Positions 44,329 through 48,632 of a stretch of 64,000 nt of DNA are shown here, in pieces. The notes beneath the pieces are model-generated. The model had not been told where the DNA came from. It was given only the letters and a program-made list of their open reading frames with translations, and searched no databases. The stretch's first letter is position 1. Each line of letters opens with the position of its first letter. The position numbers and the translations under genes are program-made. This DNA comes from Methylobacterium mesophilicum SR1.6/6 (GTDB taxonomy: Bacteria; Pseudomonadota; Alphaproteobacteria; Rhizobiales; Beijerinckiaceae), in NCBI RefSeq assembly GCF_000364445.2, contig NZ_CP043538.1, positions 6,341,301-6,405,300 on the forward strand, written 5' to 3'.

Positions 44329-47028
44329 ATGGTCGGACGTCGGGGAGGATCTCAACTGGAGTTTGCTCGGACGCGGTGGCGCGCCCTGATGCGATCCGGT
44401 GCGGCCCTCGCCTTGGCCACCGCCCTCGGGACGGTCCCGGCCCGCGCCGCGGAGGGCAACGTCTTCACCAACCTGTTCAAGTTCGGCGGCACGACGGTGC
44501 CACCCTCGCAGCCCGAGAGCCTGGAGCCGGCCTATTGTCCGCCGGTGGAGGTCGCCGAGGGGGCGGCCGCCTCGCGCACCCTCGCCGGCGAGACCGTGCG
44601 CACGCAGTTCTCCCTCGGCCGCCTCGCCCGGGAGTGCACCCGCCGTCAGGACGGGTCGATTACCGTCAAGACCGGCGTCGAGGTGAACGTCCTCCTGGGA
44701 CCGGCGGGAGCGCCCGGCCGGTTCGATGTCCCGGTCACGTTCCAGATCCGGCATGACGGCAAGACGGTGACGAGCCGCGTCGAGCGCGCCAGCGTGGTCG
44801 TCGGGCCCGGTGAGGCGCAGGGCTTCGCCACCATCGTCGCCGACGAGTTGCTCGTCCCGGCCGCCATGACGGCGGATTACGATATCGCCGTGGGCGTCGG
44901 CGCCGGAAAGGGGGCGCGAAGCCCGCCGCGAAGCCGCGCCGGCGGAAGCCGGCGGTGGCAGCGGCGCCCGCCGGCGGAGGCGACGCTGCCCAGTGACGCC
45001 GCGGCGCGCCTCGGCGAACCGATTGCCCTGACGGCGGCCGGTCGCGGCCGGCTCTGGCTCGGGCGCGCGGCCAGCTTCCGCCTGGAGCCGACGGATGATC
45101 CGGTCTTCGATCGACGCCTCGTCCTTCCGGACGCCGCGGCCGGCTGGATCGTGCTGAGCTACGGCGGAGATTCGGCGACCGCGCGGCGCCCGATCCTGCG
45201 CATCCTGCGCGGCTCCGACCTTGCGCCTCAGGATTTCATCCTTCCGGGCGCGTCCCAGGGCGTCGGGCACTGGCTCGGCCTCATCCCGCGCGACGCGCGG
45301 GAGATCCGCCTCTGTGCCGGTCCCGACTTCGCGCTGGAGCGGGTGGGGCTTCGCCGCGAGGCCGCGGTGCTCGCGCAATGCCTCGTGAAACGTCCGTGGC
45401 GCTTCGTCGGCGCGCTTTACGAGCGGGTTCGCGGCTCGGAACGACGCTACCGCGACACGCTGCGGGGTGCCTGCGCGGTGACGCCGATGGCGCAGTTCCC
45501 GTCCTGGATCGCGGCGCGGGCCCGCCCGGCCCGGATCCCGCCGACGGGGCTGCGGATCCGCTGCCTCGTTCTCGCAGGACCGGGCGACGCGGCGCTGCTG
45601 ACCGCCACGCTGGACGCGCTCGCGGCGCAGACGCAGCGCGCGACGGCCATCTCGGTCGGTTGGGACGGCGACGCGCCGGACGCTGCGGACGCCCGGGCCC
45701 TTCACCGGGCCTGGGATGAGCGCGCGTCCCCGGATGCGCTGATCGCCGATGCCGACGCCCTCTGCCTCCTCCGCGCCGGCGATCGTCCGGAACCCGAGGC
45801 CCTGGCGCAACTGGCACACGCGATCCGGGGCGCGGACCTCGCCTACGGCGATGCCGTCGGGCAGGACGGAGGGCCGCGCCTGAAGCCGGATTGGAGCCCG
45901 GATCTCGCCCTGGCAACGGGCTATGCGGGACGGCCCCTGCTGGTGACGCGCGCCTTTCTCGCCGCGTCGGGCCCGCGGTCGCCCGGTCCGCACGCGGAGG
46001 CGATCCTCGCCGTCGAGGTCGCCGCCGCCGCGGCGCGCGCGCGGGTTGCCCACGTGCCGCGCATCCTTGCCCGCACCGTCGATGATGCGCGCGACGGAAG
46101 CCTGCGGGCGAACGCGCTCAACCGCCGGCTTGAGGAGGCCGGTGTTCCGGTCCGCGCCGTGCCGCGCCAAGGGTCTGTCCGGCTGGACTGGCCCCTGCCG
46201 CAGCCGGCGCCGACGGTCAGCGTCGTGATCCCCTCGCGCGACCGGCTCGACCTGATCGCGCGCGTCTGCCGCGGCGTCCTGCACGAGACGGCCTATTCCC
46301 CGATCGAGCTGGTCATCGTCGACAACGGGTCGACGGACCCCGGCGTGCTCGCCCATTACGAGACGCTGCGCGGCGACTCGCGGGTGCGCATCCGCATCGA
46401 CCCACAGCCCTTCAACTTCGCCGCGATGGTCAATGCCGGTGTGGCCGAGGCATCGGGCTCGATCGTCGTCCTGCTCAACAACGACGTGGCGGTGCTGGAG
46501 CCCGGCTGGCTGGAGGGGATGGTCCGGCAGGCGTGCCGGCCGGAGGTGGGAGCCGTGGGCGCCAAGCTCCTCTACGGCGACGGAACCCTGCAGCACGCCG
46601 GCGTCGTGGTCGGGCTTGGCGGTCGGGCGGGTCACATCCTGCGGCGGCGCCCGGGCGACACGCCGGGCCATCTCGGGCGGCTGCGCGTGGCGCACGAGGT
46701 CTCGGCGGTGACCGCCGCCTGCCTCGCCGTGTCGCGGGAGAAGTACCTGGCGGTGGGCGGCTTCGATGCCGAAGCTTTTCCGGTCGATTTCAACGACGTG
46801 GATTTCTGCCTGCGGCTCGGCGCGGCCGGCTGGAAGACGATCTGGACCCCCGACGCGACGCTCGCGCATCTCGAATCCGTCAGCCGCGGCCCCTCCGTCG
46901 GTGCGAAGCGCGCCCGTTTCGAGCAGGAGGCAGCCCGGTTCTCCGAGCGCTGGCGCGACGCGATCCGCCACGACCCCTTCTACCATCCCGCCCTGTCGCT
47001 CACGACGTTCGGCGAGGATCTGGAATGA
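44329..47028 (+). CDS. Fused exported-protein/family-2 glycosyltransferase (probable frameshift fusion)
   Basis: An 899-residue frame. Residues 1-40 are a signal peptide ending PARA, and 41-194 look like a conserved secreted protein (AYCPPVEVAEG to AMTADYDIAVGVGAG). The frame then passes through an Arg/Pro-rich stretch (195-219) into a glycosyltransferase region. A first GT-A-like domain (about 395-580: CLLRAGDRPE, KPDWSPDLALATGY) has lost its acidic nucleotide-sugar site. An intact second GT2 domain (about 630-860: VSVVIPSRDRLDLI, NFAAMVNAG, VLLNNDV) follows. A second frame after the G-run at 44910-44914 gives the expected Lys/Pro/Ala tail and stop at 44994. A signal peptide on a cytosolic GT is odd, so a G6-to-G5 deletion is likely. 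ATG 44302 is an alternative start. Confidence 0.75.
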   Translation: MVGRRGGSQLEFARTRWRALMRSGAALALATALGTVPARAAEGNVFTNLFKFGGTTVPPSQPESLEPAYCPPVEVAEGAAASRTLAGETVRTQFSLGRLARECTRRQDGSITVKTGVEVNVLLGPAGAPGRFDVPVTFQIRHDGKTVTSRVERASVVVGPGEAQGFATIVADELLVPAAMTADYDIAVGVGAGKGARSPPRSRAGGSRRWQRRPPAEATLPSDAAARLGEPIALTAAGRGRLWLGRAASFRLEPTDDPVFDRRLVLPDAAAGWIVLSYGGDSATARRPILRILRGSDLAPQDFILPGASQGVGHWLGLIPRDAREIRLCAGPDFALERVGLRREAAVLAQCLVKRPWRFVGALYERVRGSERRYRDTLRGACAVTPMAQFPSWIAARARPARIPPTGLRIRCLVLAGPGDAALLTATLDALAAQTQRATAISVGWDGDAPDAADARALHRAWDERASPDALIADADALCLLRAGDRPEPEALAQLAHAIRGADLAYGDAVGQDGGPRLKPDWSPDLALATGYAGRPLLVTRAFLAASGPRSPGPHAEAILAVEVAAAAARARVAHVPRILARTVDDARDGSLRANALNRRLEEAGVPVRAVPRQGSVRLDWPLPQPAPTVSVVIPSRDRLDLIARVCRGVLHETAYSPIELVIVDNGSTDPGVLAHYETLRGDSRVRIRIDPQPFNFAAMVNAGVAEASGSIVVLLNNDVAVLEPGWLEGMVRQACRPEVGAVGAKLLYGDGTLQHAGVVVGLGGRAGHILRRRPGDTPGHLGRLRVAHEVSAVTAACLAVSREKYLAVGGFDAEAFPVDFNDVDFCLRLGAAGWKTIWTPDATLAHLESVSRGPSVGAKRARFEQEAARFSERWRDAIRHDPFYHPALSLTTFGEDLE
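44910..44914 (+). other. Homopolymer frameshift site (G5) in the fused gene
   Basis: If this G-run had six bases, the frame would read GKGGAKPAAKPRRRKPAVAA and continue to a TGA at 44994-44996. That gives the exported protein a natural end, typical of a Lys/Pro/Ala-rich tail. The CTG at 44986 in the transferase frame is in the position expected for an ATG start of a following overlapping gene (ATGCCCAGTGA-type overlap). Real deletion and sequencing error cannot be separated here. Confidence 0.6.
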
Positions 47029-48632
47029 GGCCGGATGCCGGTCGGGACCTGCATCTCGGCGCGTCGCGGCGGTCCTGGCCCGGGCTGGTGGCGGCGGCGC
47101 GCCATGTCGTGGGACAGCCCCGGGAGGCGGGGGCGATCCTCTGGGCGCGGCTGACCGGCAAACGGCTGCGGGCTCGCCAGAAGTGCGCGGCCCTCGTGGG
47201 GATCGACCACCGCCTCACGCTGCCGGCGCGGTGTCTCGCCCGCTTCCCGCTGGCGACGGGCGAACCGGACGGCGATATCCGCCTGATCGGCGACGGCGCC
47301 CTCGTGGCCGGCGCGCCGGAGCGGATCGCCGCGGCCTTCGCGGCCGATCCCGATCTCCACGCCGTCTACGGCGATGCGCTGGTCCGGGAGCGGCCGGGCG
47401 GCCCGGTTCTGCCGCTGCTCCCGCCGGTCTTCGACGCCGACCGCCTCGTCGCCTTCGACTATCTCGGTCCCATCCTGGCCTGTCGGCGCGCGTCCCTCGA
47501 CGCGGGCGCCGATCCGGTCAGCCCGGCCGACGCCGCCTTCCGCATCGCCGAGCGGTACGGCCCGCGCGCCGTCGGCCATCTGCCGGAGATCCTGGCGATC
47601 GGCGGATCTGGGGCGGACCGAGCCGCGGCGCCCGCAGGGGATGGGCGGCGCGCGCAGCACCATGGCGTGGTGCGCGCCCATCTCGACCGGACCGGCCGCC
47701 GCGACACACGCCTCGTCGCGGCGGGCGGTCTCCTGCAGGCGGAGAGCCCGCTCCCCGATCCGCGACCGCTCGCCAGCGTGATCGTCCCGACCCGGGACCG
47801 CCTCGACCTGCTCCGCCCCTGCCTCGACAGCCTCCGGCGCTGCACCGACTGGCCGAACCTCGAGATCCTCGTCTGCGACAACGACAGCCGGGAGCCGGAA
47901 ACCCTCGCCTACCTGCGCGCCCTGGAAGGGGAGGGGCGGGGGCACGTCGTGCCCTGTCCCGGGCCGTTCAACTTCGCCGCCATGAACAACGCCGCCGCCG
48001 CGCGGGCCCGGGGCCGGCTGCTGGTCTTCGTCAACAACGACGTCGAGGCGTTCCGTCCCGACTGGCTGGCCCGCATGGCCCGCGAGGCGCTGCGCCCCGA
48101 GGTCGGCGCCGTGGGCGCCAAGCTCCTCGACGGCGCGGGTCGGATCCAGCACGGCGGAATCGTGCTCGGTACGGGCGGCTTCGTCACTCACGGCCACCGC
48201 CATTTCCCGGGCGATGCCGCCGGCTACCTCGCCGCCCTGCGCGGCACCCACGCGGTCTCGGCGGTGACGGCCGCCTGCCTCGCGGTCGAGGCGGAGAAGT
48301 TCCGGGCGGTCGGCGGCTTCGACGCGGCGGTCTTCGCCGTCGACTTCAACGACGTCGATCTCTGTCTCCGCCTGAACGCGACCGGCTACCGCACGCTTCT
48401 GGTTCCGGAGGCAGTCCTGCACCACCGCGAGGCGGCGAGCCGCCGCTGGACCCCGGAGGCCCGTGCCCGGCACGCGCGCGAGATCGCCGCGCTGAAAGTA
48501 CGATGGGGGCCGCTGCTGGTGCAGGACCCCCATTATCACCCGGCTTTCGACCCGGAGCTCTCGACCCACGCGCGGCTGCGCCGCGGCTTCCCGGCGGCCG
48601 GGCCGGCGCCCCTGCGCCGCCCGCCCGCCTGA
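47025..48632 (+). CDS. Family 2 glycosyltransferase (tandem paralog)
   Basis: A 535-residue protein paralogous to the preceding gene. An N-terminal decayed GT-A-like domain (about 95-200: LHAVYGDALVRERPGG, DRLVAFDYLGPILACRR) precedes an intact GT2 domain (about 250-480: SVIVPTRDRLDLL, CDNDSREPE, PFNFAAMNNAAAARARG, FVNNDVEAFRPDW, AVDFNDVDLCLRL). It probably adds sugars to rhamnan-like or other cell-surface polysaccharide. The ATG at 47025 overlaps the previous stop (ATGA) and has GAGGA upstream, so both genes are one transcription unit. Confidence 0.9.
   Translation: MRPDAGRDLHLGASRRSWPGLVAAARHVVGQPREAGAILWARLTGKRLRARQKCAALVGIDHRLTLPARCLARFPLATGEPDGDIRLIGDGALVAGAPERIAAAFAADPDLHAVYGDALVRERPGGPVLPLLPPVFDADRLVAFDYLGPILACRRASLDAGADPVSPADAAFRIAERYGPRAVGHLPEILAIGGSGADRAAAPAGDGRRAQHHGVVRAHLDRTGRRDTRLVAAGGLLQAESPLPDPRPLASVIVPTRDRLDLLRPCLDSLRRCTDWPNLEILVCDNDSREPETLAYLRALEGEGRGHVVPCPGPFNFAAMNNAAAARARGRLLVFVNNDVEAFRPDWLARMAREALRPEVGAVGAKLLDGAGRIQHGGIVLGTGGFVTHGHRHFPGDAAGYLAALRGTHAVSAVTAACLAVEAEKFRAVGGFDAAVFAVDFNDVDLCLRLNATGYRTLLVPEAVLHHREAASRRWTPEARARHAREIAALKVRWGPLLVQDPHYHPAFDPELSTHARLRRGFPAAGPAPLRRPPA

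Follow-up and report, generated by a model that had tools for sequence, protein, structure and literature searches.

Organization of the locus

We have analyzed a stretch of DNA of 64,000 nucleotides from Methylobacterium mesophilicum SR1.6/6 (contig NZ_CP043538.1), referred to below as the window. A check of its open reading frames and their translations shows a single open frame of 899 residues that extends from the ATG at position 44329 to the TGA at 47026-47028. The initial annotation had divided this frame into an exported protein and a cytosolic-type family-2 (GT2) glycosyltransferase, fused by a shift of one base at a run of five guanines. Its reading of the frames is confirmed on the window sequence, as are the G5 run, the TGA at 44994 that closes the tail of the exported protein in the alternative frame, and the CTG at 44986 in the frame of the transferase. 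The features of the locus are collected in Table 1, together with four split domains found elsewhere in the same genome that are discussed below. The gene of an IalB-domain protein precedes that of the exported protein in the window. Downstream, the gene that follows the second GT2 transferase gene lies on the opposite strand, and we take this to be purC.

Table 1. Features of the exported protein-glycosyltransferase locus (window coordinates), and domains split between frames in other stretches of the window's genome
Feature	Position	Strand	Remarks
Upstream gene, part of its natural frame that the assembly leaves open	44329..44914	+	Exported-type; signal-like N-terminus, then predicted beta-sandwich
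G5 run, at or near the frame slip of one base relative to the relatives	44910..44914	+	
DNA of the natural Lys/Pro/Ala-rich tail of the exported protein, in the other frame	44915..44996	+	Ends at TGA 44994-44996
GGAGG, Shine-Dalgarno-like motif	44976..44980	+	5 nt 5' of the CTG
CTG, putative start codon of the glycosyltransferase	44986..44988	+	Conservation in transferase-defined clade
11-nt overlap of putative transferase start and exported-gene stop, as in relatives	44986..44996	+	CTGCCCAGTGA ends the exported gene in relatives
Predicted glycosyltransferase gene, 680 codons	44986..47028	+	First 25 residues disordered, then beta-strand domain and GT2-type domain
GTG within a conserved strand (GWIVLSY)	45151..45153	+	Database forms of 625-626 aa begin here; rejected as start
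Next gene, second GT2 glycosyltransferase	47025..48632	+	ATGA overlap with the first
Split AMP-binding domain	L111, ~17729		Window's genome; Pfam
Split Voltage_CLC domain	L122, ~19280		Window's genome; Pfam
Split ILV_EDD_C domain	L125, ~4851		Window's genome; Pfam
Split NrfD domain	L126, ~14186		Window's genome; Pfam

The two predicted proteins

The N-terminus of the exported part is signal-like as judged by eye. The closest relative of this part, P0071, is 91% identical to the piece encoded in the window, and an AlphaFold2 model of P0071 contains a helix at residues 9-33. No Pfam family matched the window's piece, and no NCBIfam family matched P0071. In a fold search with the model of the exported protein nothing reached E = 0.001. 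The strongest hits, beta-sandwich parts of GH2 enzymes at E = 0.0046, are too weak to be used.

The product of 680 residues read from the CTG contains the family-2 glycosyltransferase domain PF00535 at residues 412-533, with a score of 61.2 bits compared with a gathering score of 23.3 (E = 1.6e-16). Comparison with NCBIfam gave 15 matches, none of which reached the cut-off; the best was TIGR03965, with 101.3 bits against the 280 required. In the model of the transferase residues 1-25 are disordered, and these are followed by strands at 32-35, 43-46 and 53-60. The mean pLDDT is 74, and residues 31-50 lie at 84-86. The database relatives of the products bear the name Methylobacterium.

The two genes are separate in related genomes

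Is the fused protein a natural product? A search of the genus found matches in 111 of 111 genomes. Seven of the 111 were left out, their best matches (E near 1e-46 to 1e-48) being taken for other GT2 genes, and loci from 103 others were obtained (29 + 74). Both genes are readable in 100 of these 103 relatives. The three loci that were dropped are L105 and L106, which have no exported gene, and L109, where the transferase has no match.

None of the 100 relatives contains an uninterrupted fusion. The frame of the transferase, counted from that of the exported gene, is +1 in 66 and +2 in 23; the remaining 11 have both genes in the same frame, with a stop intervening. The fused product has 69 listed database relatives, found by scoring the 7991 candidates with most words in common; they have 511 to 716 residues, and none is longer. 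The Lys/Pro/Ala-rich tail that had been noticed in the shifted frame proves to be the true C-terminus of the exported protein in relatives. It is intact in P0071, and the tails of close relatives end, for example, in ...KPRRRKPAVAAAPAGGGDAAQ followed by the stop. Taken together, the absence of a fusion in 100 relatives, the lack of a long database relative and the intact tail of P0071 indicate that two separate genes represent the natural state.

The two-gene reading of the initial annotation is therefore upheld, and given the frames and tails of the relatives the fused frame is explained by a shift of one base at the G run or close to it. A natural fusion protein is ruled out by the 100 relatives. 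The annotation had also entertained a transferase that is exported or tethered to the membrane, which finds no counterpart among either the genus loci or the listed database relatives. A fusion conserved in homologs, which it had named as the sign of a natural fusion, was looked for in the same 100 relatives and is present in none.

A fusion might still be generated throughout the genus by a programmed frameshift, or by read-through of the stop. A +1 frame of the transferase around the stop, as in the 66 relatives noted above, is also the arrangement in release-factor-2 frameshifting. However, the frame relation is varied among the 100 relatives, and on this ground programmed frameshifting was rejected. 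Moreover, one locus (L033) has extra bases after the stop, as judged by eye, and there the transferase is in another frame and a GTGA supplies a start. A signal peptide would also take the enzyme away from its sugar donors, which are cytosolic. We give a conserved fusion of this kind almost no credence, and return to two separately translated genes.

A conserved CTG codon at the junction

In 28 of the 100 loci the exported gene terminates with the sequence CTGCCCAGTGA. The frame of the CTG is that of the transferase in 27 of them, and the 28th is L033. Selection of loci by this sequence fixes the last three codons, so that the invariance of GCT, GCC and CAG in that set is uninformative. The codons were therefore compared in a clade taken from a tree of the transferase alone, starting well after the junction, and the motif was not used for selection. 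In this tree the window, the 28 motif loci and L044 group together (30 members, support 0.915).

A CTG is found 8 nt before the stop of the exported gene in 29 of the 29 relatives in the clade, which share ancestry and are not independent tests; it is in the transferase frame in 28 of them. Outside the clade it occurs in 1 of 71 loci. Where the exported gene encodes Ala at the codon that contributes to the CTG, this codon is GCT in all 28 cases, although GCT makes up only 48 of the other 856 Ala codons. The 29th relative, L014, has ACT instead of GCT, and the CTG is still formed. On the tree, the GCT column is the sole unchanged one among 66 conserved columns that are at least 4-fold degenerate, where the mean is 5.4 changes. 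By both its distribution and the unchanged GCT column, the putative start codon is conserved more strongly than the overlapping protein requires. The initial annotation had proposed that an ATG at 44986 was lost. With CTG present in every relative of the clade, a lost ATG at this position is ruled out. As synonymous constraint in the overlapping gene can reveal the start codon, the locus lends itself to a clean comparative test.

Codon conservation of this kind could also come from an RNA element or from constraint acting on the tail of the exported protein itself, rather than from a start codon. The raised conservation does extend over the codons for Gly-Gly-Gly-Asp before the GCT column, these four having a mean codon identity of 95% compared with 75% in the twenty columns before them. 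Yet the Shine-Dalgarno-like motif, the CTG and the Pro codon that follows would explain most of the constrained bases, and the CTG is confined to the clade, with the frame coding from there on. We consider an RNA element or a constrained tail highly improbable, and prefer a conserved start codon.

Start signals and alternative start codons

GGAGG precedes the CTG in the window and in 27 of 27 relatives that have CTGCCCAGTGA with the transferase in frame. The spacing is 5 nt in 20 of these relatives (one with GGAGGT) and 8 nt in 7. Among other CTGs nearby, a match of five or more to the Shine-Dalgarno sequence was found for 43 of 797. The CTG of L044 is present without GGAGG, and a GTG lies two codons upstream of it. 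In L010 an ATG is placed immediately 5' of the CTG, and the database protein (P0004) begins at that ATG.

Could the transferase begin at an ordinary codon? This might be the GTG at 45151, or else an ATG, GTG or TTG within the upstream gene whose position varies. Database forms can be cited for both, in that 21 of the 69 listed relatives have 625-626 residues and so start around this GTG, while P0003 and P0011 begin further upstream. However, in the model of the transferase the GTG encodes residue 56, which is inside the strand 53-60 and is preceded by the strands 32-35 and 43-46, and GTG is the codon for this V in 23 of the 28 sequences. Ahead of the common downstream GTG, the block FRLE... 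contains the first two strands and the beginning of the third. It has pN/pS = 0.26, indicating purifying selection, compared with 0.45 after that GTG. On the grounds of the conserved coding block and the position inside a strand, the GTG at 45151 was rejected as the start. For the upstream codons, the transferase frame was followed from the CTG back to the in-frame stop. In 18 of the 27 motif relatives it contains some canonical codon inside the upstream gene, at positions that differ between species, and in the other 9 there is no ATG, GTG or TTG at all. We regard an ordinary start, at either place, as quite unlikely.

Between the overlap and the GTG, taken as a whole, pN/pS is 0.52. Comparison with the value of 0.26 for the FRLE... 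block indicates that the first part after the overlap is weakly constrained. As residues 1-25 are also disordered in the model, a start slightly downstream would cost little of the fold.

Gene finders limited to ATG, GTG and TTG cannot place a start of this kind, and the database relatives of the transferase begin at several places. From the sequence comparisons we conclude that the CTG at 44986 is probably a conserved CUG start within the 11-nt overlap, which gene finders have misplaced.

Origin of the fused reading frame

Changes of frame were sought by a scan of codon usage over 464 kb of the genome, made up of the window and twenty further stretches of 20 kb, with 400 kb of one related single-contig genome (G070) as control. 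The scan gave nine candidate same-strand frame transitions in the 464 kb, and three in the control. In four of the nine a Pfam domain is split between frames (Table 1), pointing to indel errors of the assembly or to broken genes. This is the case for none of the three in the control, which correspond to two different genes (L134), a region with no domain (L142) and one long frame (L153). With a lower scan penalty there were 28 candidates in the 464 kb compared with 20 in the control, the extra ones not being used as evidence. A rate of 4 to 8 breaks per 464 kb leads to an expectation of about 0.5 to 1 in 64 kb. The slip at the G run in the window was not itself flagged by the scan, presumably because the frame is identical before and after the short tail.

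Four further candidates (L113, L121 and two in L126) have no single domain split between frames according to Pfam. The two in L126, at 11186 and 17870, are within 7 kb of each other, near the split NrfD and beside Fer4, ActD and COX2 domains. In L115, at about 13819, a transposase of the IS4/5 family is encoded in two frames near an A6 run, possibly through natural programmed frameshifting.

Is the slip at the G run real in the strain? If so, the exported protein would lack its tail and run into the transferase. The fused product would probably be useless or mislocalized, and some separate transferase would be made from the CTG. A genuine slip would accord with an assembly in which the 6.56-Mb genome is a single contig rated 99.99% complete, and with a fused frame that is open throughout. 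On the other hand, four of the nine frame-transition candidates in 464 kb of this assembly split ordinary enzyme or transport domains, the site is a G homopolymer, and there is no fusion among the 69 listed database relatives. In view of the other frame breaks in the same assembly, the slip is probably an assembly indel, with a private mutation as second choice; we think a genuine slip in the strain unlikely. The case serves as a warning that even in a genome that looks complete, a striking fusion can arise from a slip of one base in the assembly.

The explanation that we favor, with a probability of about 0.78, is thus that the locus comprises two overlapping genes of a Methylobacterium cluster, the second having a conserved CUG start at 44986 with GGAGG before it. 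The fused frame in this assembly would result from a slip of one base, more likely an assembly indel than biology.

Start codons in other lineages

A tree of both genes, with 101 sequences, was used to follow the history of the start. The next relative of the CTG clade is L034, which has a GTG one codon further upstream (support 0.988), and seven more such GTG loci lie just outside. The Shine-Dalgarno matches of these GTG sister loci are of 3 or fewer. In two other clades, as labeled by us, a different in-frame CTG occurs 28-73 nt after the upstream stop in 14 of 16 and 4 of 4 members, with a Shine-Dalgarno-like motif that is mostly weaker. The stretch tested lacks a canonical start in eleven of these 18 loci; in a twelfth the only one is far within the upstream gene. 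The CTGs after the upstream stop in other lineages are possibly further CUG starts.

The 73 loci other than the 27 in-frame motif loci comprise 54 with a canonical start nearby, 18 without any, and one whose only canonical start lies far inside the upstream gene. Six of the 18 loci without a canonical start belong to another group, with no clear candidate start.

Two further observations concern individual loci. An in-frame CTG that forms part of a CTGA, and often has a Shine-Dalgarno-like motif, follows the upstream stop by 28-55 nt in L061, L063, L067, L069, L077, L078, L083, L108, L071, L079, L084, L065, L068, L074 and L081. Inspection by eye of L035-L042, L062, L072 and L075 shows that several hold a small open reading frame containing ...AGGRHR..., in ATGA overlap with the upstream stop. 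Within the DNA of this small frame there is also GGAGGACGGC-ATC-GCC, where the transferase of those loci might start at AUC.

A model for initiation, and its relation to known systems

We propose that the gene of a secreted-type beta-sandwich protein is followed, with an overlap, by that of a cytosolic family-2 glycosyltransferase. Translation of the latter would initiate at the CUG at 44986, with GGAGG 5 or 8 nt upstream located in the end of the upstream gene. With an 11-nt overlap between the first codons of the transferase and the upstream stop, ribosomes that complete the exported protein would end almost on top of the weak CUG start. The most likely mechanism would be initiation at the CUG assisted by the Shine-Dalgarno motif and aided by termination-reinitiation. 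The weak start would keep the level of transferase low, and the output may be sensitive to IF3. In this assembly only, the shift of one base at the G run would merge the two frames. Use of the CUG by ribosomes, low expression of the transferase and coupling to the upstream gene are all inferred from the arrangement of the DNA.

CUG is described as a poor start codon in Escherichia coli (PMC11497404), and few non-canonical bacterial starts are said to have been characterized (PMC5472188). The closest parallel is with Streptomyces sigR, reported to have a GTC start codon that is repressed by IF3 (PMC5472188). As in the present locus, a non-canonical start lies behind a strong Shine-Dalgarno sequence, in a gene pair with overlap of stop and start, and database entries are misannotated to a canonical codon. 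The start of sigR is presented as a built-in brake on expression, and we propose the same for the CUG of the transferase. In contrast to the transferase CUG, the codon of sigR is GTC and its use was demonstrated experimentally; furthermore the overlap in the sigR pair is at the downstream gene rsrA, whereas here it is at the non-canonical start itself (PMC5472188).

In Caulobacter crescentus, also an alphaproteobacterium, ribosome profiling and mass spectrometry are reported to place CTG at 0.7% of mapped starts (PMC4117421). Those starts are experimental and from one species, whereas the transferase CTG is known from comparison of sequences. The Staphylococcus aureus genes infC, cvfC1 and ccpN are described as having non-AUG starts (AUA/AUU) with extended Shine-Dalgarno sequences, giving reporter activities of about 10% of AUG, and up to 30% for ccpN in rich medium (PMC13009471). 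These share with the transferase a conserved weak start and a strong Shine-Dalgarno sequence, but the codons and the phylum are different. Overlapping gene pairs are reported to use termination-reinitiation, the commonest overlap being the 4-nt ATGA or GTGA (PMC10666635). The present pair is similar in having serial genes with a short overlap of stop and start; it differs in the 11-nt overlap with a CTG, and the coupling here is a proposal. A search of open-licence PubMed Central for 'CTG start codon' together with Methylobacterium found no paper. CUG-type starts are already known in bacteria, and by its sequence the transferase locus is probably a new case. A tentative and rather doubtful extension of the model is that such a conserved start has arisen repeatedly in Methylobacterium and restrains a glycan-building transferase in an IF3-sensitive manner.

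Two copies of the initiator tRNA gene deserve mention. In one (L131) no tRNA is called by ARAGORN, and a repeated piece stands in place of the 5' part. The other is an initiator-type gene at L130:1476 that has N at its first called base, which could be a mask. The anticodon stem of the tRNA in L130 reads TCAGG-CTCATAA-CCTGA. We take this to be a replacement by A-U of the first of the three G-C pairs usual in the initiator tRNA, a variant of the stem that may ease starts of the CUG type.
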